Part shown: in pieces, positions 7,156 through 54,361 of the stretch
Layout: the number at the start of each line of letters is the position of its first letter
Position numbering within the stretch: the stretch's first letter is position 1
From: Spiroplasma cantharicola
Lineage (GTDB): Bacteria; Bacillota_I; Bacilli_A; Mycoplasmatales; Mycoplasmataceae
Reading direction: 5' to 3'
DNA length: 64,000 nucleotides
NCBI RefSeq assembly: GCF_001281045.1
Contig: NZ_CP012622.1
Span: 744,001 to 808,000, forward strand
The notes under the pieces: model-generated
Told to the model about the DNA's origin: nothing
What the model saw: only the letters and a program-made list of their open reading frames with translations
Databases searched by the model: none
Made by a program: the position numbers and the translations under genes

Positions 7156-7180
7156 TTTATATTAATCATTAATTTTTATT

Positions 7181-30836: not shown

Positions 30837-32696
30837 TTAAACAAATTTAACTAATTCCTTGTTTCCAAGTGCTTTTGTTGACATAGTAATTTCTTTTAAA
30901 TCAATATGGAAATTTAAATAACCATATCTAAAAGTTAATACTTTATGATTCATTGATTGATTTTTATCATTTCATTTTATATTAATTCCAATTTTTTCAT
31001 TTGCTGATCAATCAAAAATTGTATCTTTTCTTTCTGAAGGTGATGTTGAATCTAATGCAGCAAATACCATGAAATAGTTTGAATTGTCTAAAATATTTCC
31101 TTTATCAAATAATTTAGCCTTACTTTGTTTGTAAAATTCTGTATTACTTAATGAGAAAGCATCACGGAAATGAACTTGTGAGTTTTTATCTTTAGCTTTA
31201 TCATTTGGAAATCTACTAGTCATTTCTTTTGTTAATTCTGAAGCTTTTAATGCAACTAAGAAATCATCTTGTGAATTATGTTCTGGGTATTTATAACCAT
31301 GATAAACTCCAAAAACTTCATGTCAAGCTTTCAAACTATCTACAGTAAATTCAGACATTTTGTCTAAAATCTGTGCATCAGTTTCATCAAGACCAACAAA
31401 ATAATTTATAGCTATTCTAAAATCAGGTAATTTATGAATATAAGCACCTTTACCTAAATTAATTGATAATCCAGTTAAATTAACTCACCCTAAAGCTGTA
31501 GAACTTTTAAATTCTTTTGTATCTTTAACTTTATTTTCTATATCTATATTATTTCTAGTTAAGAATTCATCTTTATTTAAGTCGAAATTTTGCTTTCATT
31601 TTTTTAAATTTGCTGTTTTAAAATAATTAGTTGCTAAATTATTTTTTGTTTCTGATTTACTTGGATCATTTCTAAAAACAGTATCTAAAAGAATTCTTCC
31701 ATCATCATCGTCATAATTATATTTTATAGATTCACTATCATTATAATTTTTTCATTGATTTACTGTATAAGACATTGAGTGTCTTTGCATTTCTGAAGAT
31801 TTAAAAATTAAGTCTCCCTCAAATGAAAGTGGTAATGTATTTCCTACTTTATCAAAATAATTTACTTTAATAAAATCAATTATAGAGCTTTTAAAACCAT
31901 TTGTTGCTGAATCAGCTTCATAATACTTTTTAATTTCTTTGTCTAATCTTCCAAAACCATCAGATGATTTTTTGCTTCCTTTAATATCATTTCAATTTAA
32001 ATTTGTATGTTTTCTATCCTCTGATTTACTAGATAAAAAATAATCCTTAGCAATATTTTTATAAAATTCATCACTTGCTTTTTTTAGAGAATTACTATTT
32101 GTTGAAGTATATTTAAAATTATCATCAATAGTGAAACTTTCAACTTCATTTTCACCTTTATATTGAATTTCAATTTTATAATTAACAATTACATTTCCTA
32201 AGTAAAGTTTATCTCCATCATTTGATAAATGTGACAAGATTTCTAATGAACTTCAATCAAAAACAATATTTTTAAATAAATCATTTACATCATTTAAAAT
32301 GACTTTATATTCAGTTACATTTTTTAATTTATTTAAATCAGTTTTTAATTGATCAAGTTCTAAAACTTTATAAATATCTTTTTCCAATAATATTAAATCA
32401 TATGGGTCAAGTTCACTGGCTTTATTACCAGTATTTTCTATTATTTTAGTTTGATTTAAAAATTGATATTGTTTTTCAGTATCTGGAAGACCAATCAAAT
32501 TTTTATAAACATTATCATTAAGATGTTTTGTAAAAATCTCATCTACTTCGCTCTTTAATTTTTTAATTATAGCTTCATAGTCCACACCTGGACCAGTAAT
32601 AGGATCTGTTGTACCAGAACCACCACATGCTACTACTGTTGCACTACTTGTAGCTACAAGACTTATTGTTCCTAATAAACTTAATAACTTTTTCAT
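30837..32696 (-). CDS. Lipoprotein B3
   Basis: 619 aa. Lipobox ATVVACGG with Cys24, a Gly/Thr/Pro-rich spacer, then family blocks LPDTEKQYQFLNQT, YKIEIQYKGENE, GSKKSSDGFGRLD and GLSINLGKG, with C-terminus ELVKFV. GGAGG precedes the ATG. Closely related to B2 and B4. Free-standing gene, convergent with the aldolase. Surface-anchored; function unknown. Confidence 0.9.
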
Positions 32697-33168
32697 TTGT
32701 TTCCTCCTTGATTATTTTAAAATAACCATAATTTGAGTTTAGAGAAGAAAAGAAAAAAGGCAATTTTTATAAATAAATTTTGAAAAACAAAAAATTTTTT
32801 ATTTTTTAGTACATTTTATTAAATTTATGACACTTTAATAAAACATTTTTTAAAAAAATAAACATATAAGTAGTTTTTTTAAATATAATTTTAATTGCAT
32901 GTATTGAAAAATTAATTTATAAGATTACAAATTAAAAGTGGTATTTACTTTTTTAAAGTTTATTTGCGAATATATCTGCAAATAATTTTTCTATTCTAAA
33001 AAAACTTAATAATTATAAACTTAAACTTTTTGCAACACTTATAATTTATAATAATTATTTTAAATTTATAATTAAAAACATTATGAAAGAAACTTGAATT
33101 CAGCATTCTTATAAAAATTTTAATATAGAATAAAAAAAAATATTTTGTATTGTTAACAAAATATTTTT
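32697..33168. other. 472-base intergenic region between B3 and B4
   Basis: No ORF supported. A ~48-base block at 32826-32873 (TATGACACTTTAATAAAAC ... AAACATATAAGTAG) recurs upstream of B4 at 35142-35189 and probably belongs to the control region of these lipoprotein genes. The left end of the B4 terminator is also here. Confidence 0.6.
32826..32873. repeat. Shared upstream block of B3 (recurs at 35142-35189)
   Basis: Almost unchanged 48-base block about 130 bases before the B3 and B4 start codons. Conservation in otherwise diverged flanks points to a role in transcription or to recent duplication. Confidence 0.6.
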
Positions 33169-33170
33169 TT
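33134..33170 (-). terminator. Terminator overlapping the end of lipoprotein B4
   Basis: Perfect 15-bp stem AAAAAAATATTTTGT / ACAAAATATTTTTTT with a 7-base loop. Its right arm reaches into the TAA stop of B4. Confidence 0.8.
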
Positions 33171-35019
33171 AAATAAATTTAACTAATTCCTTATTCCCAA
33201 GTTCTTTAGCTCCCATAGTAATTTTATTTAAGTCAATATGAAAGTTTAAATAACCAAACCTAAAAGTCATTACTTGATTATTCATTGTTTGATTATTATT
33301 ATTTCATTTTAAATTAATACCAATTTTATTATTTGCTGATCAATCAAATGCAGTATTTTTTCTTTCTGAAGGTGATAATGAATCTAGTGATGCGAAAACC
33401 ATATAATATCATGAGTTTTCCAAAATATTTGCTTTTTCAAATAACTCATCATGATATTTATTAAAAATCTTTGTATTGCTTAAAGAAAAAGCATCACGGA
33501 AAAAAACTTGTGAACTTTTATTTTCATCTCCTTCTGTTGGAAAAATTTCAGTCATTTCCTTAGTTAATTCAGATTTTTTTAATGCTATTAAAAAATCTTC
33601 ATCTGAATTATGTTTTGGATATGGATAGCCATGATAAACTTTAAAAACTTCATGTCAAACTTTTAAAGTATCTAAAGTAAAATGAGACATTTCATCTAAA
33701 ATTTTTGCATCACTTTGATTAAAATCAACAGAATAATTTACAGCTATTTTAAAATCAGGCAATTGATGAATATAAGCACCTTTCCCTAAATTAATTGATA
33801 ACCCTGTTAAGTTAACATAACCTAAAGCAGTTGATTTCTTATACTCATCTTTTTCTTTAATTTTATTATTTAAATCAATATTTAAACTTCTTAAAAAATC
33901 ATCTTTAATATTTTCATAATCTTTTTTTCAAATTTTTAAATTTGAATTTTTAAAGTAGTAACTTGATAAATTATTTTTTGATGTTATTTTTTCTGGATCT
34001 TCTCTAAAGACAGTATCTAAAAGAATTCTTCCATCATCTTCTTTATAATCATATTTTATAGATTCACTATCATTAAAGCTTTTTCATTTATTTACTGCGC
34101 TAGACATTGAGTATTTATTCATCTCTGAAGTTTTATACATTATCTCTCCCTCAAATAAAAGTGGTAACTTATTGTTTTGTTTATCAAAGTAATTTACTTT
34201 AGTAAAATCTATGATAGATTTTTTAAATCCATTTGTTTCAGAGTCTGTTTGATAATATTTTTTTAATTGTTCATCTATTCGTCCAAAGCCATCAGATGAT
34301 TTTTTATTACCTTTTATATTATCTCAACTTAAATTTGTATGTCTTCTATCAGTTTCATTATTTGATAAAAAATAATCTTTTGCAATATTTTTTGAAAAAT
34401 CATCATTTGCCTTTTTTAAAGAATTACTATTTGTTGAAGTATATTTAAAATCTTCATCAATGATAAAAGTTTCTATTTTTTCTTCACCTTTAAATTGAAT
34501 TTCAACTTTGTAATTAACAAGTACATTTCCTAAATAAAGTTTATCTTCATCATTTGATTCATAAGATAAAATTTTTAAAGAACTTCAATCAAAAAGAACA
34601 TTTTTCAATAGATTATCAACATCATTTAAAATAACTTTATAATCATCTATAATTTTTAATTGATTTAAATCAGAAATTAATTGATCAAGTTCTAAAACTT
34701 TTTTAATATCTTGCTCTAATAATTCTAAATCATATGGGTCAAGTTCTTCTGCACTTTTATTACTATTCTCCATAATTTTAGTTTGAGTTAAAAAAGAATA
34801 TGCAGTTTCTGTATCAGGAATGCCAATTAAATTTTTATAAACATTCTCATCAAGATGCTTTGTAAAAATTTCATTCACTTCCATTTTTAATTTTTTAACT
34901 AATGTTTCGTAATCGATTTCCTTTTCACGATCTTTTCCACCTGATTCACATGCAATAACAGTTGTACTACTTGTAGCTATAAGACTTATTGCTCCTATTA
35001 AACTTAGTAACTTTTTCAT
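33169..35019 (-). CDS. Lipoprotein B4
   Basis: 616 aa. Signal MKKLLSLIGAISLIATSSTTVIAC with lipid Cys24, then PDTETAYSFLTQ, YKVEIQFKGEE, FKYTSTNS, KGNKKSSDGFGRID, GLSINLGKG and C-terminus ELVKFI. Rich in TGA-coded Trp, so standard-code translation breaks it, but the frame is open from start to stop. Same family as the other lipoproteins here. Function unknown. Confidence 0.88.
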
Positions 35020-35298: not shown

Positions 35299-35301
35299 AA
35301 A

Positions 35302-35712
35302 TTATCTAATTTGTTTTTTGTCATATTCAAAATAAATTGACAATGAATACATAATTATTAATCCTAATGAAAAAATCATAAAGATTAAATAATCATAAGT
35401 GTAGTCATTACAATATACTGATATTGCTGTTATAAAATTAATAGAACTAAATACAATTCCAATAATATTTCAGCTTAAAGAAGTTTTTTGACTTTCTGCT
35501 TTAATTGAATACACACAAGCTAAGATATCAACAACAACTCACAAACTTCACAATAACATTAAAAGAACTGTAGTGATTAACTTTACACTCAAGTGCATAT
35601 TATCATTTACTGCCCCATTTAATCCTGTTGAAATAATAATGATACTTTTAATTGATACAACAATAAAACAAAAGATAACTTTTGTATAAAAACTAATTCA
35701 ATATTTTGACAT
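35302..35712 (-). CDS. Small four-helix membrane protein
   Basis: 136 aa, hidden in standard code by TGA=Trp. Start ATG is preceded by GGAGGAAC. About four membrane segments can be read: VIFCFIVVSIKSIIIIS, TTVLLMLLWSLWVVVDIL, IIGIVFSSINFITA and YLIFMIFSLGLIIMY, with a charged EYDKKQIR end. No family recognised. It lies 69 bases downstream of the HsdS-like membrane gene and ahead of a terminator, so it may be the last gene of the defence run or an unrelated neighbour. Confidence 0.75.
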
Positions 35713-35781
35713 AATTTGTTCCTCCACTATTAATTTAATAGAAATGAAGAAATAAAAATGTCATTGAAAAACAATGACAGG

Positions 35782-36537
35782 TTAAATTGAATTTAAAATA
35801 TCTTGACGTTGCTTTTGATATTCTTCTAAAGAAATCAATTCGTTTTTATACAACTCTTGTAACTTGATTAAACGTTTACTGGTTTTTGATATTCTGACGC
35901 GATTTTTATTAGTAAAATATAAAGTTAGAAATAATATAATTTCTATACCAATGGTAATAGTTAAACAAATTGAAATAATAACAAAAGTATAAATAATTGT
36001 ACCTTGTATTAACCTTGCCAACACTGATGTAAAAAGTATTCACAACATTAACATTGCAAAATTGACAATTATTATTTTTAATAAGCTTGTTAATTTTTTA
36101 TCTAAACTTACTTTTGAAGTAATCATTAAATATTCATAATCTCTTAAATTGTAATCATTAAATTCATCAATTTTTATTATTTCTTTTTTAACTCTATCTT
36201 TATTAGTTATAATTCCCTCTTTAATTATTTGAATAGCTTTTTTATTATTAACTTTATTAATTGATCTTAAAATTAAATAATTAGATGAAATAATTTTTTC
36301 ACTATCTTCTTTTTTAGCTAATATTAATGTATAAGGATAATTTAAATAAACTAATATATCATTTTCTTTAATAAACACTTCTCTTGGTATTTCTTTACAA
36401 AAATCTCTCATATTATTTGGAAAAACACTTATTTGTTTAAAATTATTGCTTGAGCAATTTTTACAATCACTTAAAAAATGTTCACTTCTGTTTAAAACAG
36501 TTCCTCTTTTTATAGAAAATAAATCAATTAATTTCAT
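35782..36537 (-). CDS. HsdS-like domain fused to two membrane helices and SHOCT-like tail
   Basis: 251 aa, joined across a TGA codon near 36040. Residues ~1-140 resemble half of a type I restriction specificity subunit: LIDLFSIKRGTVLNRSEH, FIKENDILVYLNYP, SSNYLILRSI. Then come two membrane helices (~145-172 and ~178-203). The end reads RLIKLQELYKNELISLEEYQKQ, like a SHOCT oligomerisation segment. There is no partner HsdM or HsdR, so it is not an ordinary specificity subunit. It follows the HNH gene by 35 bases in the same operon. It might recruit the restriction complex to the membrane; this is inference. Confidence 0.65.
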
Positions 36538-36572
36538 ATTTTACCTCAACTTTAATATTTTACATTCAAAAA

Positions 36573-37841
36573 TTAGAAACCAAATCTTTTTTTATGTTCT
36601 AATGTGTAATTGATAAAATTTTCATTTATTAATTCTTTATTAATTTTTAATTTTTTTGTTGTAATTTTTACTATATATTTAAATTCTTCTTCACTACATT
36701 TTTCTGTAATATGAAATCTATTTTCATGAAATATAATATAACCATGCTCAAATAATTTATCATGATTTGAACAAAATCAAAAACCATTATCTCCATCTAC
36801 AATTTCTTTGTATTTTTGTTCCAAAGAAATATTTTCTTGATTCTTTATATCTGAAAATCTTTTAATATGTGCTCCCACAATTAAACTAGGATTATTGCAA
36901 TCACAAAGTATGCATTCTTTACTTCCATATTTTGATATTAAATTATTATGATAAATCAATGAATATCTCCTTATAGCTTCTTGAATTTCTGGTAATGTTG
37001 GTGTTTTTTTATTTTCAAAAGTAATATCTGTTTTATAATGTACTTCTTTAAAAATAGCATTTAATTCCTCAGTTGGAACTTTCTTTGAATTTATTCAACC
37101 TTTAAAAAATATTTTTTTATTAATTTTTTTAATAAAATTTAAAAAATTTTTATCCATTTTAAATTCTTTAATTGAATATATATTAATTTGCCCTTTAAAA
37201 TATATTGAACAATAAATTATTATTAATCAAGCTTCTCCATTATTAGCTGCACCAAAATTTAGTAATAACGAAATTTCATTAGCATCTAATAATTCTAATA
37301 AATTTGATTTATTAGATGAGTTCTTTTTTGACAACTCGTTTCTATAATAACTTAAATTTTCAATATTTTTCAGTTCACAATTAAAAATATCATCTTGAGC
37401 GTATACATTCAGAACTTCTTTATTGAAACTTAAACTTTTAAATATATTTCTAATCATTTCAATATGTAAAGAGCAACTTAAACTAATATTTTTATATTGT
37501 TTAAAAACAAATAATACAAAATTTTTATTATCCATTTTTTTATCAACAAACATTTGCATAAAACTTATAAATCCTTGAGAAATAAATATATTGCGAGAAT
37601 CAGCTTCATATTCTCTTGAGGTTAAAATAAAATCACACTCTAAAATTTTATCATTTTCATATCTGATAATAATTGCTGTAAATTTTGTTAATTTAAAATT
37701 TTCATTTTCTATTGAAAAAAAATTATTATCAACTATTTCTTTTACACAATTTTCTAATTTCATTGTTTTTATTAATTCTTTTAATAGCTTATCATTCGCT
37801 AATATTGAATCTCTTTTAAATACTATTTTTATATTACTCAT
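36573..37841 (-). CDS. HNH restriction endonuclease of the R-M system
   Basis: 422 aa across two TGA codons. The N-terminal ~200 residues are not recognised. The C-terminal part (from ~295) is an HNH nuclease: CILCDC zinc pair at 310/313, GAHIKRFSDI with the catalytic His near 325, then GDNGFWFCSNHDKLFEHG. That is the arrangement seen in HNH restriction enzymes. Its start overlaps the methyltransferase stop by 8 bases, as expected for a restriction-modification pair. Recognition site unknown; the paired double methyltransferase suggests an asymmetric site. Confidence 0.8.
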
Positions 37842-39684
37842 AATTTTTTATTATAACTTCCCTTCTATCTTTAGTCATATTATTAGGACAATTAACTAAT
37901 TTATAATTATTTTTTGATATTCATTTTTTTAAAATTTCATTTTTATCACCCTTATGAATAAGAACATTTGATAACATAAATTTTGCACCCTTAGAGTTAA
38001 TTCTATCAATAAAATTAAGTAGCTTTTCTTCCTCTATTTTATTTCAACCTTTAAATCCCCTCTTTCCATCATTATAAGAAGCTGTTGTAATTAAATATGG
38101 AGGGTCAAGGTATATAAACGTATTTTTATCAATAATTTCTTCATAATATTCATATGAATTTGATTCAACAGTCAAATTCATTTTCTTAATTTTGTTTGAA
38201 AATGATATTATTTTTTCTCGTACATTATGATTAAAATCCGACAGCCCAACTGTATTATTAAATTTTAAATCTGAATTAAATCTAATTTGATTTGAAAAGC
38301 CAAATATTATTAGTATAAATAAAATAAAACTACTATTATTTTTATTATTATAATATTCTCTTAAACGATTATAATTTTCCTTATTATTTTTACTTAAAGA
38401 AAATTTTTTAATATAAAAATTTAATCTTTTAATTATATCAGATGATTTTTTATCTTTGAACATTCTAATTAAGTCTGCTACTTTAAAGTTATAATCATTA
38501 TATATAACATTTTCAAAATTACAATTAATACCTACATTGAATCCTCCGCCAAAAATATCGATAAATTTGAGATTTTTATTTTTAGGAAAATGTTCTTTTA
38601 AAAAACTAATAAGTTTATATTTGCTACCTGAATAATTTAAAGGAGATTCATAGATTACATCATCAAACTTTTTCTTTTTTATTAAAAAAAGATATTCTTT
38701 ATTTTCGTCATTCTTATTTTTAGAAACTGAGTTAATATATTTTTTATAATTAATTTCTTTTAAAATTACTTTTTCATCTTTAGAAAATCTCATTAACATT
38801 TTTTCAAATACTTTTTTATCTATTAACCCTTTATTACTATAACTAATTAAAAGATTTTCAGTATTTATATCACTTAATAATGAAAACATTGCTTCCTCTG
38901 CAATAATTTTTTTGGAGAAATCTGAAGATCCAATCTCCTTAGCTCTAGAACCCGTTACTCCACTAACTTCACTTTTTTCGTTTTTAGATATAGTTTCAAG
39001 TAAATGATATTGATGAGAATATTGTTGAGAAGTATATGGGGGATCTAAATATGTTAGATATATTTTATCTTTTTGAAGAACTCTTACGACCTCCTCAATT
39101 CTATTATTAAATAATATAGGCTTATGTAAATAATTAATTTTTCTTTTCTTAAATTTCTCTATGTCCAAATATAGCGATTTAAAAAATCTAGGGTCTTCTT
39201 TTTTTAAGAATGCGCCATAAACGCCAGCAATATTTGATATTCCTGAAATTCCTTCAAGTAAAATTCCCATTAAAAACGAAAATTCAGAGTATTCAATTTC
39301 ATCATTATTAAAACTTTTATAGATATCGTTAACAATAAAATCAATTCTTTTTGAATTTATTTCAGAAAAATACTTTCTGTTAGCTTTTGGAGAGTAAGTA
39401 TTATATATGTAACCCTCCAAAATATTATTTTCATTATTATAAATATTTAGCTTATCAATAATTTTATTAGTAATATCACAAAAATACATTTCTGTAAGAA
39501 TTTTAGAAAAAAATAAATAATCATTCGCTGTTACTTTTGCTCCATGGTTTGCAAAAAAACCTGTCATTGAACCAGTACCTGCAAAACCATCAAAAATATA
39601 TTTATTCTTTAAATGCAAATTATTTGATTCTAAAAATAATAAAATTTCTTCATGTAATTTATCCTTATTTCCTAAATATCTCAT
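37834..39684 (-). CDS. Fused double N6-adenine DNA methyltransferase (D12 class)
   Basis: 616 aa. Two complete alpha/D12-type adenine methyltransferase domains in tandem. Domain 1 has MRYLGNKDKL at the N-terminus, SAM motif IFDGFAGTGS (~30-39) and DPPY at 214-217. Domain 2 has NYSGSKYKL, FIDIFGGGFNVG (~375-384) and DPPY at 527-530. This mirrors FokI-type fused methylases that modify both strands of an asymmetric site. GGAGG precedes the ATG. The gene overlaps the PD-(D/E)XK gene by 20 bases and the HNH gene by 8. Role: protects the host from the endonuclease of this cluster. Confidence 0.9.
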
Positions 39685-40531
39685 TAAATTCTTCCTCCAA
39701 ATTATTAAAAAGTTTTATATCTTTGAGACCAGAAAAATCAAAGTCAATTGTATAATTAATGACCCTATCATTTTTTATAATAATTGAATTATTAAATTTC
39801 TCTAGATTATAGACTTTATATTTAATATTACTTAAATTAAATTTAATATTATTATAAAAATCTCAATTTGCTTTATTTTGAAAAAAAATGTGAATAAAAG
39901 AATCTTCATTTATATATTCAGACACGTTTTTATATAAATCCAAAATATTTGTTAAAATCCCTTCTCTATTTAATCTAGTCGTTATAAACAATGTATTTTT
40001 ATTGTCTATTTGATCTTTGCCAATTTTATATACATTATCATTCTTTTTTGTAGTTGATTTAACTTCTATATAATAATCCTTTTCTTTAATATAAAAATCT
40101 TTTTTTGAATAATTATAACTTCTATAATTTTTACCTAGAAATTTTCATTTTCATATTACTGCCAATTCGGCGTATATACCTTGTAATTCAAGAAAATCAG
40201 GTGCTAATACTTTTTGAATAAAATTTTCAATAAATTCCAATAAATTGTAGATACTTTTATAATTATTAATAAGTTTAGTAATTAACTTAAATGACTCTTG
40301 AATAATACTTAGTTCGATATTATTATTAAAGGCTAGTACTTCACCCTCAAATTGAATACCTTCAATTTTACCTACAGCTTGTCCTATATAATTAAAATTT
40401 AAATATCTAAAACTTTCATTTGAATTACTCTCTTTTTTAAGGATGAATCACCTTTTTTCCTTAGTAAACTCCTGAATCTCTTCCACCAAATACAAATTAT
40501 TATTATCATTTTTATTAATAAATTTCTTCAT
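39665..40531 (-). CDS. PD-(D/E)XK motif protein (DUF4420-like)
   Basis: 288 aa, missed in standard code because of TGA codons. The core reads LELQGIYAELAVIWKWKF, then YYIEVKSTTKKNDNVYKIGKDQI, which fits the nuclease pattern Glu...Glu-X-Lys followed by a QL/QI helix typical of DUF4420 proteins. Family proteins are repeatedly encoded beside Z1 proteins. Starts 2 bases after the Z1 stop. Likely nuclease or DNA-binding subunit of the MutL/Z1 restriction complex. Confidence 0.8.
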
Positions 40532-40533
40532 TA

Positions 40534-42045
40534 TTATTTATCCTTATCCGAGTATTTAACAAATTTCAATTCCGTTTTAATATCTACTAGCTTCTCTTTA
40601 ATTTTTTTTACATCATATGTAATTATATCAATCAATAATTCATTATATAAAAAATTATTGATTTTTTTTGCCTCAGAAAAGCACTCTTTTATATTTTGAG
40701 ATATAAAAATTTTCATTAAATCTGAGAAGTAAATTTCTAATTCCTCATTGATATTAATTTTTTTATTCCTATATCCAAATCATCTAGCTCTTTGTAGAAG
40801 AATGTCAATAGGCTGTTTGTGTTCTCTAATGTTTAGCATAAGCTCACAAATTAAATTTTCAAAAGTTAGTCCTCTTGATACCAAATTACCACCGATATAT
40901 ATACAATTTTGATTGTTATTTATTTCTTCATTTTTAGTTTTATTATTTAAAACTTTTACTTCTATACTATTATGATATTTCTCTATGTCATAATTATCAA
41001 AGTAAGCAATTTTATTTAAATTTTTTTTAACTTCCTCAAAATAATCAATCACATTATTATTTTTTAAATCCCTTAAAAAAACTGCATGAATATCAAATAA
41101 TTTATCTTTCAAAATAAAATGCTTCTTTGCATCTATATCTACATTTATTATAGAAGAAACATTTAACTTTGTATATTTCTTAACAAATGATGATAGCAAT
41201 ATATAAAATATTAGAAATTTTTTCAATAATAAATCTAGACTAAAATTATCATCCTTTTTATTTAGCTGAGATATTTCAAAATATTTTTTATTATTAAAAA
41301 AATCTATTCCAGTATAATTTTTTTCAATAATTAATTTAACAATAGCTTCTGGATAAATTTCATTAGATTTAGAATTTGTTAAATTAGCATACGGTGTAGC
41401 TGTTATTCCAATATATTTAGTATTATTTGCATTTTTGATTTTTACAATTTCATTATATATTGCAGAATTTTTTGAACTTCCATTATTTAAAGAACCGTAA
41501 TCACACTCATCATCTATTATTAAAACTTTAAAATTCTTTGAAATTGTGTTCAATTCAGCACTTATTTTTTGCATTTGCGTTTTGTTTTTAATAACATTAA
41601 TTATAATTTTAGTTTTATCTTTTTTTAGAGAAAATAAAGAAGATTTATTTTTATTTATATCATATAGCAAAATATCACATAAATTGTTATTTAATGTGTC
41701 TTTTATTCTTTTTAAAGTTTGCTTTAATAAAAGATTAGTTGATCCTCCAAAAATAATTACACAATCATAATCATTATCCAATGCATTCATAGTTATACCA
41801 ATAATATTATTTGTTTTACCTGATTGTACCTCACCTATAACAAGAATATTATTTTTAATATTCTTAAGACAAAGGAAAATATTTTTTATATTTTTATATA
41901 TTAACTCATAATATGTTTTTCCATATAAATCCTGTTTCAATTTCAAGTCATTTAAAAAAATAGAAAATAAAGGTCCACTTTCTCTATTTTCCTCATTTTT
42001 ATTATCATCAAAAAATGAGTAAAACCCCTCTATTATATTAGACAT
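40534..42045 (-). CDS. Z1-domain helicase-like ATPase
   Basis: 503 aa. Superfamily II-type ATPase: Walker A GEVQSGKT at 71-78, Walker B LIIDDECD at ~175-182, motif III-like GITATPYA ~213-220. The Z1 domain hallmark follows: GGNLVSRGLTFENL, then ILLQRARWFGYR with a TGA-coded Trp. It is somewhat shorter than many Z1 proteins. Known from comparative genomics as a partner of MutL-like ATPases in restriction-modification loci. Its start overlaps the GHKL gene stop by 8 bases. Confidence 0.88.
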
Positions 42046-43810
42046 TTTGTTGAATAAATGAAGAATTAGCTATTTCGTTTATAATATTAGCTGACCCATT
42101 GCTAATATCATTTAAGCAAGCTAAAATAAAAGATAATCTATGCAAACTTGAAATAAAACTTGTCTTTGTTATTTTTGGACCTGATACCAAGGGTTTTCAA
42201 ATAGGATGCAAAATATTTAATATAATTTCATAATTATTGCTTTCCTTTTTACTTAAAGTATAAAAATTTTCAGATACATAATTACTTTCTATATGAATAA
42301 TTTTTATTTTTCCTGATATACCAGTTTTTGGATTTCTATAAATATAAAAAAACTCAGTTCCTCCGCTTCTTACTACTGTTTCTTCCATTGATTCATCATT
42401 ATAAAAATTTAAACTATTATTATAGGTATTTTTTAAAGTTGCTTGAGCTTGCTTGGATAAAGTTCATTTTTCTGGTTCAGAGTAATTTGATTGCATACTA
42501 GTTAAAGTATTCAAAATAGGAGCATATTTTTCTTTTCATTCATTAATAAAATTTAAAAATTTTTCTTCAAATTTTTTATTTTTTCATTCAAAACCAAATT
42601 TTTGATCTGATATAGATACATAATTTCTCAAAATTAAATCATCAATTTCAAATTCACCAAAAATTCTATACTCAATTCCCTTTCCCCCATAATTTGTTCT
42701 TAGACCCGCTATATAATTTTTAGAGCCTTGTGAATCATCAAAATCATTTGGACCACACATTATTGCTCTTTTAGATTCATACACTGTAAAACCTGTATAT
42801 GATACATAATTGAATTTAAATTCACTTTTTATTTCCTTTGCATTTCTTAATATTCCTATTTTTATAGGAAGAAAATAATCCTCATTTTCATCTTTTCCAA
42901 GATAAATATTACATTCTCACTTTAATTTTTTTTCAAATTTTATTTTTTCTTTTATATCAAAAATTATTTCTTCATTCAGATTATAATTCTCTAATGCTTT
43001 TAGAAAATCAATTTTAAATTTTTCTATTATTTCATTTTTGTTTTCGGTTTTTATTTTGTTTGAATTTTTAACTACATCATTTATTCATGTGCTTATATTT
43101 TCACTTTTTGGAGTAAAAGATTCTAATGTCAAATATTCATCTTTACCTTTCTCATTTATTATTCCAATAGAAATATTAACTCCCATTTCTATAAATTTAT
43201 TAAATTTGAAACTGATAACATTACAAAAATGAATAAAATTGCTCTTCTTTAGTAAGTCATATCTACTAAAATTTCCTCTTGAAATTTTAATTTTAGTTCC
43301 TCTATTTCTATAAAATTTATCATTCAATTCATAGTTAAATCTTATTTCAGCAGGTTTTTTTTCTACTTCATATTCCACAATTTTATTATTATATTGATCT
43401 AATTCTTCTAGATCAATATAAACAAAATTTTCTTCTTTATTTTCTGTTTTCGTTCATATTTCTAATTTATTACCTGATCAGAATGTAGCAACTTTCATAC
43501 CAACACCATACCTATTTAAATTACTCTTTTTAAATTTTTTATCCGTATTTGCAAATTCTAGTGAGTTTTCAAGATTTTCAACATTCATTCCATATGCATT
43601 ATCAATTATTGATATTTGAAAGTTATCTTCTAAATGGTAATCAAAAGTTATTTCAATTGCTAATTCATTTAATTTGTTATGACCATTTAAACCTATTCAA
43701 GAAGAAATAGAATTATCAATAAATTCGCTAATCATGGTATAAGGTTTTGAAACAAGTCCATCTTCTCTTAACATATCTGTAGTGACTAATAAATTTTTTT
43801 TCCTTTTCAT
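42038..43810 (-). CDS. GHKL (MutL/MORC-like) ATPase
   Basis: 590 aa, broken into short pieces in standard code. Bergerat-fold motifs are plain: N-box EFIDNSISSW (~31-40), IIDNAYGMN (~70-78) for the DxGxG motif, and NRYGVGMKVATF (~105-116). The rest includes a beta-rich transducer-like region (GTKIKISRGNF) and a C-terminal part without known motif. Such ATPases are the bacterial relatives of eukaryotic MORC proteins and occur with Z1, PD-(D/E)XK and methylase genes. Start chosen from AAGGGG before the ATG. Confidence 0.88.
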
Positions 43811-43864
43811 TTTAATACCCCTTAATAAATAATATTATTCTATCATAATATTATAAACTTTAAT

Positions 43865-45619
43865 CTAATCAAAATTAAAGTTTATAATATTTAAAAGTTC
43901 CTTTTTTAACATTATTTTTTTTTCTTTTAAAGAAGAAAGTAGACTTATTCTTTTTATAATTTCCTTAAGATCATTAAATGATTCTTTTTTAAATAAATTT
44001 GCTTCAGTTATATTTTTTTCTTTAATCAAATATTCAAAATATTTATTAAGAGTATCTAACGCTTCCTGCAATACAATGTCAAATTCTTTTTCTATATCAT
44101 TTTCATTCTGAAAAAAATTAAATAAAGTATAAAAAATTAAATCTCGAGACGAATTGAACTTTAGTAACTTTAAGTTTTTTTTAATTTTTGACTTAAATAA
44201 AAAATAAATATTCAACATTTTTAAAATTTTTTGTGAGTACTCATTATTTTTACTTTTTGTAAAAGCTCTAATTATACTTTCTGTATTATAGAATGGACTT
44301 TTTATATCTATATAAGAAGAAGAAATATCATTATATATTTGATTATTCATTTTACCAATTTTATTTTTTATGGAAACTAAATTATCAAAACATATTGTAA
44401 AGAGCTTTAATAATTCTCCAGCGGATATTCTATTTTTAAAGTACCTTCCTAAAGAATTTGCAATTGAATTTCCATTTTTTATTTCATAATATATATTTTG
44501 ATCAATTAGTATACTTTTAATATTTAATTGATATTTCTCTAAACTTAATAAATCCTTAATTTCAATCTTATTTTGATTATTTGTAGAAAATGGTAATTTT
44601 GTCATTAAATTTTCAGATACTAATTTATATATTCTAACCAAAACATAAGTTTCATCATAATCATTAGAATTTATTTTTTTATTTGATAAATAGTGATTGT
44701 AAAGAGTTCTCATTGTTTGTTGTCCATTTATTATATTTGGGTCTTTAAAAATTACTTTATCAATTATTTTTTCATCATATTTTAAATTGCTAACTATCAT
44801 AGTGATTCCATTGTTTAATAGGAAGAAATTTTCTTTCTCATTTTCTAAACTATCTATTATTTCCTTGGAAATATTTGTTTTTTTAACTTCTTCTCTAACA
44901 TTACCTTCAAATAATGAGTCAATTTTATTTCCATTTTCTTCTTCTTTAACTATTAGTCCTATTAATTCATTTAATTTAACTTTTAAAATTACTCCCTCGT
45001 CATTATTATAGTTGCGATGTTTTATCAAATTATTTTTTTCATCAATATTAAATACATGTTTTATTCCCTTATTAATTCTTTTTCCATTATGAATATTTTT
45101 TAAAACAAATTTTAAAAAATATTCAATTGACATGCACTCATCTTTAGCATTTCCAGGAATATTTCAATTCTTAAAATTTAATTCTTGCTCAGTTTTAGTA
45201 TATACAAAAATAAACCTTACAGTAAAAATAAAATTCACTTTGGCTAATTTTTCTATAATTTCTATTTTTATTCCAGTTTTTTTATTTTTTTCTTTGCTAC
45301 TAAGACTATCATCCTTTAAACAATTTTCAATTTGTTCACTTGCAAGTTTAGATTTAGCATAATCTTGTGATTTAATATTTTTTCTTGCCTTTGCTTGAAT
45401 TAAATATAATGTTTCATTTGAAAAATAGCATAAATCCATACCTTTTATTTCTGCATTATTTTCATCAATTAGATATTCATCTACATTTTCTAGACTATTG
45501 CCCGAAATAATAGAAGAAACAAATTTCTCAAATAATTTTCCTTGATAGATTCCTTTATCATATTCATTATTAAATTTTTTCTTATTACATAAAGAAAAAA
45601 ATTTATCTAGTATTTCCAT
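43865..45619 (-). CDS. AIPR family (abortive infection/phage resistance) protein
   Basis: 584 aa joined across one TGA codon. The N-terminal ~150 residues look like a PD-(D/E)XK nuclease: AEIKGMDLCYF with Asp62 and LYLIQAKA with Gln75-X-Lys77. The AIPR core follows: FFLLNNGITMIV, then DPNIINGQQTMRTLYNH, which are hallmark motifs of the family. AIPR proteins are linked to phage resistance and cluster with Z1, GHKL and DUF4420 genes. It lies 54 bases upstream of the GHKL gene. AAAGGGG precedes the ATG. Confidence 0.87.
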
Positions 45620-45683
45620 ATTTGATACCCCTTTATTTTAAATAATACATTCTTCACATATTTAATTTTTTGTCTACAAAAAA

Positions 45684-47486
45684 TTATAATTCAAATATAA
45701 CTTTTTCCTTATTTGCTATTACTTTCATTTTTACATGAGTAATATTTTCCATACCTAATTGATTTTTTAATTTCATTTCAAAAATAAATATTGATAATGA
45801 ATTTATTACTTTTTCTGATAAAGAGTTTATAATACCTCTACCACCCATTTCCTCAATGGCGTTTTCTTGCATTATTAGATCTACTAAGTTCTCTAATTCA
45901 TCTTGAGTATATGAAATTTTAACATTGTGTTTTTTATTTAAAGCACTGACTAGTTTAGTAAGTTTACTTTCTATTATTTCTTTAAAAATAACTCTATTTG
46001 TAATGTAATTAAAAGGTATTATATTTTTCTTTCCAATTCTGTTTAGTAATTCTGGTCTTTTTAAAACATTTACAAAATGATTTTCTACAGCTCTAATAAA
46101 ATTTTTTCTTATTTCATCTTGATTACCTTTCGGATTATTTCCAACTACTCCAATATTAGAAGTAAAAATGATAAATGTCTCAGAAAAATCAATTAACTCA
46201 TTTTTTGATGAAGTAAGTCGGCCATCTTCAAGAATTTGCAAAAACTTATCCAATATTCTGCCATGAGCTTTTTCTACTTCATCAAATAATAATACTGAAA
46301 AAGGATTTTCTTTAACTGCATTTGTTAATTCTCCCCCAGAATCATAACCTATATAACCAGGAGGCGCTCCAATAAGCCTTTGATCAGATTCTTCATGATT
46401 ATACTCACTCATATCAAATCTAATTAATTTATTTTCATCTCCAAAAACTAATTTTGCAATTTGCTTTGCTAACTCAGTTTTTCCAGTTCCAGTTGGACCT
46501 GAGAAAAATAAAATTCCTTTAGGTTTTATTAACTTTTCAGAGTGCATAATTCCATTAAGTCCTAAACTTGCATTTATTAAGGTTTGTTTTACATTAGCAA
46601 TAGCAAATTCTTGGCCTTTAACTACCTCATTTAGAATATTGTCTGCATTGTTTAATTGATTTAAATCCATTTTTTCTCATTCTGAATCTCTCTTATTAAA
46701 CTGGGCCAATGAAAATAACTCCTTAAAAGTGTAGTTATCATCTTCTGTTTGAATTCTAGCCAATTGCATAATTTCTTTAACAGCAAAACCTTCAGTTAAA
46801 GCCACTGCCTCAATACGTTCTTTTGAATCTAAATTAAGTTTTTCTCTATCAATAACATTAAATGAGCGATAAAATCTATTGAAAATCTCTGCTCTTTCAT
46901 TTTTATTTGGCTTATTAATATTTACTGAAGCAAATTCTATATTTTTTGAACTAAAATCATTTGCAATATTTCCAGTATCTCTACTAATAAAAATTACTTT
47001 ACTTAGCTTATTCAAATTAATAATGTCATATTGATTTTTTACATCATCTTCAAGAATTGTTGACAACAAAATAGCTGCTTGTTCTACTAAATCTTTAATG
47101 CTCTCTTGATTTAATAAAGTATCTGAAAAGTCAATTATATATATTTTTCTGCTTATATCTTTATCTTGAATTTCATTTTTTAAATCATTAATAAACTCTT
47201 CTAAAATTTGCTTAATACTATTAGTTTCAAAATCTTCAAAATCATTTTCATCATCTAATATGTCTTGCTCTCCTAATAGAAATATTTTTCCTTTTGAGGG
47301 AGAAAACTTAATAACATCTTTATACCCAATTTCTTTTGCAATATTAACAATTTTATTATCCAAATTGCAAAATTGCTTTTTAGAATCCTGATTATTTTCT
47401 AAAAAAGTATCATAAACATTTCCACCAACTAAAAGTAAATTTTTTTGTTGTAACTTAACTTTCAATTGCTCAATAGATTTTTTCAT
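45684..47486 (-). CDS. ClpB-like double AAA protein with degenerate first AAA
   Basis: 600 aa. Residues ~1-265 look like an AAA module that has lost its Walker A loop (LLLVGGNVYD) but keeps a KIYIIDFSD strand, a KVIFISRDTGN sensor-like strand and an arginine-rich second subdomain. Residues ~290-600 are a Clp/Hsp100 D2 AAA: GPTGTGKT at 330-337, GAPPGYIGYDSGG pore loop, SVLLFDEVEKAH, IIFTSN and LLNRIG. No N-domain or ClpP-binding loop is visible. The start is 2 bases below the stop of the 341-aa gene. It likely remodels or disassembles a complex with the other three proteins (inference). Confidence 0.8.
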
Positions 47487-47487
47487 T

Positions 47488-48513
47488 TTATTTTTCCTTT
47501 ACTTTCATTTTTCTAACTCTCTGAATTGGTCTTGTTGTAGTAGAAGTTCTTGTAATTTTTTGACTAACAATAAATCTTTGTTTTGATTGTAATCCTTTGA
47601 TAAATTTTTCTGCATCTGCATCACATAGATGATCTGCATAGTTACCCATTTTGTATTCCATAGTTCCATTTAATCCAAAATTAACTATTATATTATTATT
47701 CTTATTATTAACTACTTTTAAAGATATTACAAATTGGTCTCCTACTTCAGGAGTTGAACTATTAAGAATAATATATTTTTTTGAAAAAGTTTTGAAGTTA
47801 ATTTTTTTTAATTCATCTTCAACATCTTTTACTAGCATATTTGTTTTTAAAATATTAGTTTCTATTGACTTCATTAGAGCAGAAAAGTCCATAACTTCAA
47901 TGTTAGTTTCTAATTTTGACAAATCAGAATATAATTTAGTTTTGAATTCCTTTGCAATATTTAAATTATTTAATTCATCTTTTAATTTATCTTTATAAAT
48001 TTTTATAGTCTTATCATTAGACTCTTTAAATCTAATGTTTTCTATTTCCTGATTAATACTATTAAAATTTACTTCTAGATTATTACTAAACAAATTTTTT
48101 AAAGCTTGATTTGCAATAAACCCATTTTGGCTAATTAGTTCTCCAATTTTATTTTTTTCAAAATTAATTGTTCTAATTAATTCACCTTCTAAATTTAAAG
48201 TATATTTTATATTTTGAATTTTCTTTATAATATTGTCCAACTGTAAGTAATATTTTTCAATTTGTTTATTCTTTGTAGCATTTATAATATCGTAATCTCC
48301 ACTAATGGTATGTGATCCACCAATTTGTTCAATCAAAGATTTTGACTCTTCTAATTGAGAATAAATATTTTTAATTTCCTCATTAAAAATATCACTAAAA
48401 TTATTTTTAATTGAAAAATTTTCTAATTCTTTTATTTCTTTTTCAACTTGTGTTAAAGCTAATAACTCATCTTTATTACATATATCAAATGTTATTGAAG
48501 CATTATGACTCAT
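47488..48513 (-). CDS. Unrecognised helical protein of the helicase-AAA operon
   Basis: 341 aa, no recognised family. N-terminal half is predicted helical with coiled-coil character (VEKEIKELENFSIKNN, KYYLQLDNIIKKIQN). A beta-rich stretch follows (KKYIILNSSTPEVGDQFVIS; NNIIVNFGLNGTMEYKMGNY). The basic tail is rich in Thr, Arg and Lys (TRTSTTTRPIQRVRKMKVK) and could bind nucleic acid. It sits between the 598-aa and AAA genes with spacings of 15 and 1 bases. Possibly the partner or substrate of the AAA protein. Confidence 0.7.
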   Translation of the reverse strand: MSHNASITFDICNKDELLALTQVEKEIKELENFSIKNNFSDIFNEEIKNIYSQLEESKSLIEQIGGSHTISGDYDIINATKNKQIEKYYLQLDNIIKKIQNIKYTLNLEGELIRTINFEKNKIGELISQNGFIANQALKNLFSNNLEVNFNSINQEIENIRFKESNDKTIKIYKDKLKDELNNLNIAKEFKTKLYSDLSKLETNIEVMDFSALMKSIETNILKTNMLVKDVEDELKKINFKTFSKKYIILNSSTPEVGDQFVISLKVVNNKNNNIIVNFGLNGTMEYKMGNYADHLCDADAEKFIKGLQSKQRFIVSQKITRTSTTTRPIQRVRKMKVKEK

Positions 48514-48528
48514 AAAATATTTTCCTCA

Positions 48529-50325
48529 TTATTTCTTTTTCAAATTTACAATATCTAATGTCTTTTCAATATAACCTAATTTTTCCAAATTTTCATCATT
48601 AGGTAATATTGCTCTACCATGGACAAACTCTGATAAAAATTTATAACTATCTTTATAAAAAGAATAAGCACCATCTTCTTCATAATTTGCACTTAAAACT
48701 TTTGAAAATGTTTTTTTCTTTGTAACACCAACTTTTTGTTCAAGTTTTTTTCGCAAATTAATTATTCTAACTGTGATTTTATCTTCGGTAGGAGTTTCTT
48801 TAATTTCTATTTGTTTATTAAGTTCCTTATAAAAATTATCAACTCTCAAATCCTTAATTGGAGATATATCAGTTAATTCTATTTTGTTCTTCAAAAATTT
48901 TAGACCCTCTAAAGTTAAATTTTCTTTTGTTGAAACATCAAATTGATTTTTCATTTTTATTATTTTTCAAAAATTCACTTCTTTTTTTCAATTTGTAAAA
49001 ATTTCTTTTTCTTTATATTCTCATTTATTATTTAGATATAGTTCCTCGTATGAAAAATCGGAATATTCAACAAGTAAATTTATCATATTCTTACTTAAAT
49101 CTAACGAGCTATATTTTATTAACTCTCTAAGTTCATCACTATTTAAAATATGTTTAACAAATTTTTCAAATCATATTTCAGTAATAGAAATTGATTTAAT
49201 ATTTGCCTTAATAAAATTAATTTGAATACTATCATAATTATTTTTATTTTCCAAATCCTTTAATAGAATTTCAATAAGGTTCTTATTAACTACATTTTCC
49301 AAATTTATAAAGTCGAGATATTTATTTTCAATTTTTTGAAGCGAAAATCTATTTAAAAGCAGAGTTTGATTTAAATCATGAATTTTTAATTTATCATTAT
49401 AGATATTTACTAAATATATATTATTATTATAAATACAAATTTCGCCTTCAATACCAACTTCTTCTTTCAAAATATTATCTAAGTAAATATTATAATCTTC
49501 AAAGTCTGGATAAATTATTTCCGATTTAAGTTTCTCTTTAAAATTATTTTTTTTCAAAGTAATATTATATTTTTCAAAAATAATATCCTTTAAATAATTT
49601 TCTTCTATCAACCCCAGTTTAATATGCTCAATTAATTTTTCTGCTCTTCTATTTTTAGGTAATAAATTTTTATCTTCATCTATAATAAATTCGTGCTCTT
49701 TTTCAATATATGTTAAATAATTATCTACCAAATTTATTGATTGAATTTCTTGAGATAAATGATCTATTTTAATATTAGATTCTCCAAGTGTCTCATAATA
49801 ATTTGAATCCAAATAATTTTGAATTTGAAAATCTATTTTCTGATTATTGCTTTCAATTTTTTTGTAATTCATTTTAGATTCAATTTCTTTAGGAATCTTA
49901 TTTTTTAGAACTTCACTTAAAAATATTTTCTTTTTCTTTTGGAAATTTTCAGTTAAGGAAAAATACTCTTCATTCTTAATTTTCTCTTTAATTTTTTTAT
50001 TTAGAATAAGTTCGTTAAAATTAATTTTTCAAATACTATCAATTTTTTCATAATCATTAAATTTAAAGGTAATTGTTTTTGATTTGAATAATTCCTTGAA
50101 GGAATCTTCAATAAAAATAAACATTTTAAAATCTAAATTAAAATATTTTTTCAAGAATTCCTTTAAATCTATAATTGGTGGTAAATCTTCTAACTCATTT
50201 TTATAAGCTAAAAGTAAACAAAAACGAGAGTTAAATTCATTTAGTTCCTTTAAAGAAGCAATATTAATTTCTATTTCTTGTAAAAAGTAAGGTATATTAG
50301 CATTTATTTTTATTGTATTTCTCAT
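48529..50325 (-). CDS. Unrecognised 598-aa protein of the helicase-AAA operon
   Basis: 598 aa in one frame once TGA is read as Trp; standard code splits it into three pieces (49872 and 48954 look like starts but are internal Met). No family recognised. It is mainly helical, acidic and Asn/Lys rich, with an N-terminal ~100-residue part (MRNTIKINANIPYFLQ) that seems a separate domain. The last 140 residues contain SEFVHGRAILPN. Its start overlaps the helicase stop by 16 bases, so translation is coupled. Confidence 0.75.
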
Positions 50326-53300
50326 ATTCTAATTACCCCTTCATTGTTTTCTACTTTTTCAAATCATAAATTGAAAATATCTAATGGAATTTGTTCACCA
50401 TATTCATTATCAATTAATGGCTTTACTTCGCTTCTAAAATATTCTTGAACTGCTCCTACTATAATTAATTTATGTCTTGCTCTTGATACAGCTACATTAA
50501 GTCTTTCAATTGATTTATAGAAATCAATATTTCTAGATTTAAATTCTTTAAACATTCTTTCTTCATTAAAAGATTGTTTTCCTCTTACAAGGTCTAGAAT
50601 AATAATATCTTTTTCTCTTCCTTGAAAATTATCAACTGTATCAATTTTTATTTGATTTAAATATTTTCTATCGTTAATATGTTCTCTTAACATATCTCTA
50701 ATAATAACTTTTTGTGATTTTGTTACTGAAATAATTCCAATTTGATTTGCTTTAATAGAAGAGTCTTGTTTAATTTTTTTAATTAATTCCACAATACAAT
50801 ATGCATTGTATTCATTAAAAGCTGAACCAAGCATTCTATTATTAAATAGAGATATTTTTTGGTCAAATGATACTTGCTCAGGATAAATTCTTATTTCATT
50901 ACTCCATTTAGAGTTATCTCTAACATATTCAACAAACTTTGAACTTATAAAAGAAGTGTCAATAATATTTACAGCATTCATATAAGTTTTGTCATAATTC
51001 AACTTTACAATTAAATCTTTTCTTTTAACTTCTGGTAATTGTAATTGTTCTTCATCATCATAAACAAAATTAACAATATCCATAATCTCTTTATTGAATC
51101 TATGCTGAACATTTAAAAACTTGTAAGCTTTTTTATCTCCAAAACCTTTCAATTTTTGTGCATGATTTTTAAATAAAGGAAATAAGAATAATTTTTCAAT
51201 TTTTGTTTTAAATAATTTAAATTCACTTTCATTTTCTTTTTCATCTGGATCTTTTTTATGTTTCGCTTGAAAATATTTCTTTAATGTATTCTCATCAATA
51301 TCTGATAAATTTGGAGGTAATTGTCTATAATCACCTGCTAACATAACTTTATCTGCTAAAAGGGCTGTATTTAAAATTTCAATTGTTGTTGATTTGGAAA
51401 CCTCATCTATTATTTCAAAATTAATTGGATAATCAATAAATAAGTTTCTTGTTTCATTCAAATATGAAATACTTTGCTTACCTGTTGTAGTAATACCTAT
51501 AACATTTATCAATTCATTGTTTAAAGCTTTTAAGGCAAATGACTCAATTTCTTTTTTATTAAGACTATTATCAACTTTGCTTTTAAATTTGTTACTCAAA
51601 TTTTTTAATTTATTTAAATATATTTTTTCGGAAGAAACATTTATTTTTTTAAGTATTACTTCAATAATTTTATTAATTGAAGTAACTTCTTCGGTTTTAA
51701 ATTCTCCATGCATTTTTATAAATTTTGTTATGTTATTATCAAGAGAATAAAAATTTTTAATTTCTTTGTCATATTTTCTTTTAAGAAATAAAAATTTATT
51801 ATCTAAAACTTCCTCTTTTGTTATTCCATACGTTAGACTTTCTCTTATTTCTTCTTCAATATTCTTGGCAATACTTTTTGAATAAATTCAATTAAAGTCT
51901 TCAAATTTGTATTTTTCATATTCCCGATTTTTAATCATTTCAAATAAAAACGTTGGAACAAAACTTACTTCCTCCTCATTTGACTTATAATTATCAAAAA
52001 ATATTTTTAAATCAGTTTCTCCTTGAACATCAAAGTCCTTTAAAACAAAGTTATCAATTGCATATACAAAATTTTGATACATATGTTTATAGTCATAACC
52101 CTCGGTACTTAATTCTTCTTCTTTATCTCTCACATAAGTGTTTTTATAGAAAATAATATTAGGATCTGTTCTAAAAAATTCCCTAAGTCTATCAAAAGCA
52201 TTATTGATTGCTTCATGAGAAAAAGATGTAATTAAAGTATTTTCATTTTTTTTAGAAATACTATAAGTTATTGCAGCAATTGTTTGAGTTTTTCCAGTAC
52301 CTGGTGGTCCTTGCAAATAACTTAATGAATTTGATGATAAGGCCATTTCATATGCTTCACGTTGTTTAGTATTTAAATTCAAACTAATATCTTTTTCTGT
52401 ACTCAAAGACAATTTATTAAGTTCGATACATTCTGGATATTCTAATGAAGTTGCTAAATATGGATTTCTATAAATACCCTTCTCTAACATAAGTATTGCA
52501 GAATAATACCTATTAATTTTTGTAAATAAACCCAAATCAAAATCTGATAAATATCAAATTTGCTTACCCTTGTAATCTTTTTTAAGTAATGATGATAATT
52601 CAATTTCATTAAAATTTATTAACTTTTCTTCATCATCTTTTGGGTCTGTTTTTAAAATTACACTTTTAAAATTATATGTAGAAAACTCAACACTATTTTT
52701 AAGTTCATTAAAATTATTCACATCTTTTTCTAAACTTAAAATTAAATGATTTGCTTCTTGATTTAAGTTTTCTCATTTATTTAAGTTGTTATTAATTTTA
52801 TTTAATTCAGTTGTAACCTTATTAATCTCTTGTTTTATATAATTTAATTTACTATCTAATTTTTTTATATATAGATTTATGGATTTTTCCTTAGAATTAA
52901 AAACCTCTAAATCTTGCTTCAATTCTTTAAGAGTTTCTGTTTCTTTTAAACTATTATTTAATTTACTTTTTTTATTTTTACTTGTCTTTTCAATGCTTTT
53001 TTCCAGAAGTTTTATATTTTTTTTAACATTGAATATTTCTTCTTTTATCTTTAAATGTTCATCTGAAGCTAGTTTAGTAGTTTCTATATGCTCTTCCTTA
53101 TCTTTTTCAAGTTTCTCGAAATCTATTTCAACTTTATTTTTATCAATAAATAGTATTTTAATTTTGTCTTCATTTACTTTAACTTTTTCTAAATTTTTAG
53201 AAATTTCTTCATTTATTATAGTAATTTTATTATCAATATAATCTTGTATATCAAAATTTTTTAAAGAACTAATTACAGCACTTGTCTTTATATCATCTCT

Positions 53301-54212
53301 TTCACTTGAAATAATTTTATATCTACCCTCTGCTATTTTTGTTTTACTGTCTATCATTAATATTAGATTATCTTTTTCTAAACTATTTTCTTCTAATGTA
53401 AAATCTTTTAAAGAAAGTAGTTTAGCTTGTGAAGAGGTTTTTTTCTTATCTCTTAAATGTTTTCTAAAATCAATAATAAAATCATGTCACCCTCTTAAAT
53501 TCAAACCTTCATCAGATCTTCCAGTTAAAATATCAGATCTTGATAAATCCTTGAATAGAGTAAAAAAATCATCCTTATTTTCAAATAGCTTTAAAATATT
53601 ATTTTTATTTTCTTCTACATACTCAATATTATCAATTAAATTAGTTATTACTTTAATATTAAGAGACTTAACATATTCATAGCCGAAGTCTAATGACTCA
53701 ACTCTTGTTATATCAAATCATAACTTTATATCAGAATTAACATCTTGCATTGTATTATTTTCGTCTTTTTCATAGCAAAAATCTGCGTAAATAACAATTG
53801 AGTTTTTTAATAAATTAAATTCTTCTTTAGTTTTTTCATCAAATTTAAAAATGAAGGCCAAACCAGATATTAATATACCTTGTTTATCTTTTGATTCCTT
53901 TAATTTTCTTTCAAAGGCATGAAGATTTCTAAGTGTTGAATTTTGATTTTTATCATTACTAATATTAGTATCAAATGTTGATAAATTTAAATACATTAAT
54001 TCTTTCAATGATTTCTCATTCAACAATTCAAAAAACTTTAAAAGGATAAATTCATCTGATTCAATATCAGAATTTAATATTTTTTTGATTTTTGATATAA
54101 CAATATCTCTACATAAAATATCATTATTTTTATTAAAGGCTTTAATACCTATTTCCAGTTTAAGTTCTTCATAATTTGACTCTTTCTCTGAAATTTTAAA
54201 TTGTAAATTCAT
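50310..54212 (-). CDS. UPF1/DNA2-like superfamily 1 helicase with coiled-coil insert
   Basis: 1300 aa across six or more TGA codons. N-terminal ~285 residues are unrecognised. A long Lys/Glu coiled coil follows (~286-480). The SF1B helicase core starts ~610: LNTKQREAYEMAL (Q motif), GPPGTGKT at 635-642, then FEIIDEVSKS with DE at ~936, GDYRQLPP, VDNFQGREKDIIILDLVRG and LNVAVSRARHKLIIVG near the end. That motif set marks the UPF1/DNA2/COG1112 group, which unwinds RNA or DNA. It is the first gene of a four-gene operon with a promoter in the 54213-54350 spacer. Confidence 0.88.
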
Positions 54213-54361
54213 AAATTCTTTTTTCCCTCTAGAAGTTTATAAAATTATTTATAATAAATTTTTTCAAGTTGATTAATTAAAAATTTTATAGATAAAGACC
54301 TACTATTTTTATAATAACACATAATAGTGTTTAATATATATTTTAAAATGAAAAAGTGGTC
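54213..54361 (-). promoter_or_regulatory. Promoter region of the helicase-AAA operon
   Basis: 149 bases between a terminator and the helicase ATG. A minus-strand TATTATAAAAAT stretch near 54303-54316 is a fair -10 region. AGAGGG lies before the ATG. The preceding terminator suggests the operon has its own start. Confidence 0.45.

Follow-up and report, generated by a model that had tools for sequence, protein, structure and literature searches.

In the 64,000-nucleotide stretch of Spiroplasma cantharicola DNA analysed here (the window), the minus strand carries at 36573–45619 a tightly packed run of genes (code 4) for an AIPR protein, a MORC-type GHKL ATPase, a Z1 protein, a PD-(D/E)XK protein, a D12–D12 methylase and an HNH nuclease. 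Do these genes form one restriction system, did two defence systems become neighbours, and is a MORC/Z1 locus with this kind of methylase new? A preliminary description of the sequence had named the same six genes as one packed run, and this was confirmed, with families and motifs intact (Table 1). The overlaps of 8–20 bases given there apply to three of the five junctions; the distances, in the order from AIPR to HNH, were +54, −8, +2, −20 and −8 bases. The 20-base overlap joins the PD-(D/E)XK and methylase genes, and the methylase and HNH genes overlap by 8 bases.

Table 1. Positions of the six genes and of the exchanged segment in the window.
Feature	Position	Strand	Basis or remark
AIPR protein, AbiU-type, 584 aa	45619-43865	-	first gene of run; Pfam AIPR, PADLOC AbiU
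MORC-type GHKL ATPase, 590 aa	43810-42038	-	Pfam HATPase_c_3, S5 motif
Z1-domain SF2-type helicase/ATPase, 503 aa	42045-40534	-	Pfam Z1, ResIII
PD-(D/E)XK protein, DUF4420 kind, 288 aa	40531-39665	-	family alignment; Pfam DUF4420 below cut-off
Fused double D12 N6-adenine methyltransferase, 616 aa	39684-37834	-	Pfam MethyltransfD12, PADLOC MTase_II
HNH_2 nuclease, 422 aa, predicted restriction enzyme, methylase partner	37841-36573	-	Pfam HNH_2
Exchangeable segment, holds exactly six genes	36549..45683	-	blastn against same-genus genomes G003 and G009

Six abutting reading frames of 288–616 aa with matching families are not a product of chance. Tryptophan is encoded 20 times in the run, always by TGA, indicating that the six genes are adapted to code 4. 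We found no terminator-like sites within the run and, with Rfam, no RNA elements in 28000–64000. Pfam supported five of the six proteins directly with matches above the gathering score, the exception being the PD-(D/E)XK protein.

The AIPR protein matched Pfam AIPR (1.1e-25, above gathering score) and PADLOC AbiU (1.1e-28), and it retained the residues common to 13 AIPR proteins in an alignment. Judged by eye, its N-terminus has the appearance of a PD-(D/E)XK-type segment; the literature describes a HEPN domain for the AIPR N-terminus.

The GHKL protein (P0005) matched Pfam HATPase_c_3 (6.8e-18, above gathering score), and residues N33, D70, G74, G102/G104, K106, T172 and K404 were conserved in the family alignment. 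Its S5 motif GFTVYESKRAI matches the MORC signature GhXhhpXXRhl (Iyer, Abhiman and Aravind 2008, PMC2292703), with G340 kept in 98% and R348 in 95% of 41 aligned sequences. Since this motif is specific to MORC, the protein is a MORC rather than a MutL, so that from the earlier label "MutL/MORC" the second half stands and the first does not. The Z1 protein (P0004) matched Pfam Z1 (7.3e-19, above gathering score) and ResIII (1.3e-7) and retained GxVQSGKT, DDExD and QRARWFGYR in the family alignment; its DILLQRARWFG differs from the SF2 signature DThhQXuRhFG by a single exchange, T to I. No solved structures matching the MORC or the Z1 protein by sequence were found. A search of viral contigs with the MORC protein revealed no relative and a phage search one weak match, thus giving no sign of a phage-borne core. 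On plasmids the Z1 protein had few relatives, 5 records with weak matches.

The match of the PD-(D/E)XK protein to Pfam DUF4420 was weak and under the cut-off (9.4e-4). A family alignment of 40 sequences (39 others) showed conservation of E122, D145, E156-x-K158 and Q174, of which E122, D145 and E156xK158 would provide the E-D-ExK pattern of an RE-fold protein.

The modifying component had been described as a two-domain adenine methylase, and the sequence bears this out: Pfam MethyltransfD12 (3.4e-51, above gathering score) matched in two stretches, both DPPY motifs (214–217 and 527–530) are intact, and PADLOC MTase_II (1.2e-140) covered the entire length. In a sequence search the C-terminal half matched Dam structures. 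The HNH protein matched Pfam HNH_2 (3e-8, above gathering score), and H325, N352, H360 and C313/C315/C357 were invariant across 50 homologues.

We collected the closest 80 relatives of the methylase from a scan of 84,980 species, with one genome per species. They share 35–43% identity and stem from many phyla, archaea included. The methylase ORF could be placed in 79 of these loci, and in 76 of them an HNH homologue lay at most two genes away. In an annotated plasmid example the partner is called "MAG4270 family putative restriction endonuclease". Matches to the Z1, MORC, DUF4420 or AIPR queries were found near none of the 80 methylases, an absence that is less firm for several loci on short contigs. 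Because the HNH partner is nearly constant and the core absent, the D12–D12/HNH pair is, as judged from sequence, best read as a widespread stand-alone type II system that can do without the core, and not as something peculiar to the MORC/Z1 system. The preliminary description had also considered that core and methylase/HNH pair might be separate in all relatives. This holds for the closest methylase relatives but not for the core, since several core relatives adjoin other D12 and HNH genes. Among mycoplasmas, the fused double methylase of M. hominis MhoVII protects both strands of GATG/CATC, and double-adenine methylase fusions are mentioned for others, relatives from M. bovis/M. agalactiae (PMC12898733). 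In the genome analysed here a split D12 + D12 pair (310 and 347 aa), with a protein of 525 aa encoded after it, was seen near C1:882-885 kb (L012, 9206–12745), likely a further double-adenine restriction system.

Comparison with two genomes of the same genus, G003 and G009, revealed the limits of the block. In blastn against G003, homology covered 45684–54342 and 35301–36548, with one 38-base low-score match as the only similarity in between. The match ends at 45684, the last base of a ClpB-like gene, and restarts at 36548, 11 bases ahead of the start of the next gene; the match to G009 likewise reached only up to 36548. On one side the flanking proteins showed identities to G003 of 70% (SF1 helicase), 68%, 73% and 91% (ClpB-like), on the other side 81–82% (251-aa and 141-aa proteins) and 88% (aldolase-like). 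In G003 the slot contains a different set, which includes HNH, Dcm and a long Z1 protein; in G009, a third species, the common outer flanks enclose an AIPR protein and one D12 gene. Since homology stops and resumes at the edges of the six genes and the slot holds different sets, we concluded that defence genes turn over at this slot and that the six genes are one block of exchange, in agreement with their earlier treatment as one unit. Direct repeats at the block ends did not exceed 8 bases of A/T-rich DNA; exchange by homologous recombination within the common flanks would be our guess.

The surroundings showed further variation. Over 35301–59975 of the window, different defence genes lie between the same flanking genes in three genomes of the genus, and 54343–58563 had no match in G003 or G009 either. 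The region 45684–54212 encodes an MkoA-like SF1 helicase, a ClpB-like AAA protein and two proteins to which no family could be assigned. In a search of 295 genomes, only one other of the same genus had a full-length counterpart of the P0009 protein, and there the reading frame is split. The window also holds eight genes for lipoproteins of about 615 aa whose signal peptides are nearly identical (501–9025, 18437–20281, 23774–25627, 30837–35019); they stand partly in tandem, and ABC-transporter-like genes separate some of them.

To follow the core itself, we surveyed 392 genomes of the same phylum. Z1 was present in 49 of them, and 53 distinct Z1 loci (numbered L###) were annotated together with the window. 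The gene order MORC-Z1-DUF4420 recurred. In the 41 MORC-Z1 cores the partner was Dcm in 21, D12 in 3 (including the window), N6/N4 in 1, a DndC-like protein in 6, D12 together with a DndC-like protein in 2, and none or other in 8; these labels were set by hand from gene order and allow small shifts (in L221 Dcm lies three genes from MORC). The cytosine methylase is therefore indeed the usual partner, as had been stated. A same-strand modification-type gene was nearby in 33 of the 41 cores; mollicute cores lacking an adjacent one include L202, L214 and L216.

A tree of the 41 MORC-Z1 pairs placed the window in a mollicute group (SH-aLRT 95) in which Dcm, D12, N6/N4 and DndC-like partners are mixed. 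Its nearest rows by path were two Dcm cores, although the exact placement is soft because this was a quick tree with long branches. One of the two, L011 (C1:820000-828150), belongs to the same genome: a second MORC-Z1-DUF4420 core with a cytosine methylase, and with a NOV_C protein upstream. This cytosine version is a natural comparison for the adenine version in the window. A parallel case is L015/L179, where the genes run MORC-Z1-DUF4420-Dcm-HNH_2 and the HNH protein is a relative of the one in the window, so that the placement of a methylase and an HNH gene downstream of the core recurs. The closest layout elsewhere was seen in a same-genus genome (L206), where MORC-Z1-DUF4420 is followed after a 376-base gap by separate D12, D12 and HNH genes. 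HNH genes also lie beside Dcm cores (L015/L179, L194, L197–L199, L201).

In eight mollicute loci (L203, L204, L206, L210, L211, L213, L218, L219) a DndC-like PP-loop protein adjoins MORC or DUF4420 on the same strand, with gaps of −29 to +30 bases. Five of the eight proteins were compared with TIGR03183 and scored above the cut-off in L206, L218 and L219 and below it in L204 and L210; the remaining three were assigned by BLAST. DndD above the cut-off was not found in the genomes with these loci. Neither a large Dnd survey nor a narrow literature search contained a prior mention of a DndC-like link to the MORC core. GmrSD_N (DUF262) proteins occur at or near the MORC-Z1 cores L212, L215, L220, L203 and L204, with the family confirmed for all but L215, which was assigned by similarity to L212. 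On a Priestia aryabhattai plasmid (L249), the genes after Z1 and PD-(D/E)XK encode a restriction enzyme of the AlwI family and a cytosine methylase.

On this evidence we hold it somewhat probable, at about 0.55, that AIPR and a MORC–Z1–PD-(D/E)XK core took up a complete double-D12/HNH pair and that the whole moves, and is probably expressed, as one defence cassette. The exchanged block consists of exactly the six genes, modification-type genes of types that are mixed among mollicutes accompany most cores, like layouts exist at L015/L179 and L206, and the overlap of the PD-(D/E)XK and methylase genes bridges the two halves of a run that has no terminator-like site inside. Against this reading, the methylase/HNH pair lives without the core elsewhere, defence genes cluster in islands, and the slot of the sister species holds other defence genes; the exchange of the block is evidence that the genes are transferred together, but not that they function together. 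At less than even odds stands the view that two independent systems travel together, namely the type II pair and an MZA-like AIPR-MORC-Z1-PD-(D/E)XK system that is blind to methylation. The pair can live alone, and some cores stand without a modification gene, indicating that the core may not need a methylase. The passage on mzaABCDE in PMC9523054 gives a sigma factor plus mzaBCDE and mentions no methylase there. Two separate systems would, however, be less expected to be joined by a 20-base overlap, to have a modification gene beside most cores, and to recur in the same layout with Dcm and HNH.

Mollicute genomes readily lose genes, and broken Z1 loci are seen among the relatives (e.g., L207), which would suit the view that the locus is what remains, decayed or silent, of a defence island. 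We regard this as very unlikely, since none of the six reading frames is interrupted and the motifs checked in the MORC, Z1, PD-(D/E)XK, methylase and HNH proteins are intact. Least probable of all is a larger system that includes the four upstream genes from the SF1 helicase to the ClpB-like protein. They lie on the same strand, end 64 bases from AIPR, and in PADLOC the helicase is recognized by models of Mokosh MkoA; but G003 has this four-gene block at 68–91% identity with the six genes missing, so the four are not obligatory parts.

Double D12 methylases of the FokI kind modify an asymmetric site on both of its strands, HNH enzymes are DNA-cutting nucleases, GHKL ATPases of the MORC/MutL type clamp DNA, and Z1 proteins carry SF2 motor motifs. 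In the one-cassette reading, each methylase half would accordingly, by analogy to the FokI methylase, place m6A on one of the two strands of an asymmetric site, and incoming DNA without this mark would be cut first by the HNH nuclease. Unmarked or cut DNA may then be the substrate of the MORC clamp and the Z1 motor, which would bring the PD-(D/E)XK nuclease to it for degradation, with AIPR as a putative last-resort abortive arm. Looping of DNA between recognition and cleavage sites, as proposed for MORC in the operon descriptions of Iyer et al. 2008 (PMC2292703), would fit this scheme. That the core is joined here to a self-sufficient adenine restriction pair suggests that it can function with more than one type of "self" mark on DNA. 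A more speculative and rather doubtful extension is that the core is a mark-independent restriction engine, paired in evolution with whichever self-marking enzyme was available, and that here it absorbed an autonomous RM system; the range of markers might then comprise m5C, m6A from single, split or fused D12 enzymes, N6/N4 and orphan DndC-like proteins.

Eukaryotic MORC relatives silence genes in animals and plants. The six-gene cassette, with m6A as its predicted and easily scored marker, would provide a direct test of whether the MORC/Z1 core reads the mark of its neighbour. The same core is available with cytosine, adenine and DndC-like partners, in two versions within one genome and with a swapped block in a sister species, so that the boundaries of the unit need not be guessed.

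How does the locus compare with known systems? For prokaryotic MORC operons, Iyer et al. 2008 (PMC2292703) describe a DNA methylase that is mostly cytosine-specific and rarely adenine-specific, and HNH nucleases as partners in related operons. The six-gene run resembles the operons with the third type of helicase described there: a MORC with the S5 motif, a distinct SF2 helicase with DxxxQxxRxFG, an RE-fold protein with E-D-ExK, AIPR, and a DNA methylase in the neighbourhood, here the double D12 enzyme. This bears out the assignment to MORC/Z1-linked restriction loci. The adenine methylase and the HNH nuclease were taken at the outset as a departure from known loci; both are already stated there, and the locus is therefore a variant and not a new kind. 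What sets it apart from their text description is that the double D12 methylase is a fused protein and brings an HNH partner of its own.

Miller et al. 2022 (PMC9523054) describe a system of Z1, a PD-(D/E)XK protein and a cytosine methylase, associated with AIPR and MORC, which they compare with MZA. The six-gene run shares the association of Z1, PD-(D/E)XK, AIPR and MORC with this putative type II defence system. However, the core is defined there with a cytosine methylase, where the window has D12-D12, and the Z1 protein is given as about 925 aa versus 503 aa in the window. For MZA (mzaABCDE, Gao et al. 2020, as cited in PMC9523054), the MutL-like ATPase and Z1 were matched by models at low score, far under the NCBIfam equivalog cut-offs (MzaB 27.7 of 850 bits, MzaC 63.5 of 1500 bits). 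MzaA, MzaD and MzaE had no match in PADLOC or NCBIfam among the ten proteins scanned, the AIPR protein matching AbiU instead, and we rejected an identity with MZA. The run also differs from MZA by the inclusion of a restriction pair.

With FokI, MhoVII and the M. bovis/M. agalactiae relatives (PMC12898733) the run shares two adenine methylase domains in one protein, although the N-terminal domain of MhoVII is of a different, YhdJ-like type. As in double-adenine type II systems, a nuclease gene lies next door, and by analogy both strands of an asymmetric site are expected to be protected; unlike in those systems, as represented by the closest 80 methylase relatives, a MORC/Z1/AIPR core is nearby. 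The MORC–helicase–RE core, as recognized from its sequence features, is thus already known from the defining features of Iyer et al. 2008, and what is added here is the boundary of the block, the independence of the methylase/HNH pair, and the turnover of partners including the DndC-like link.
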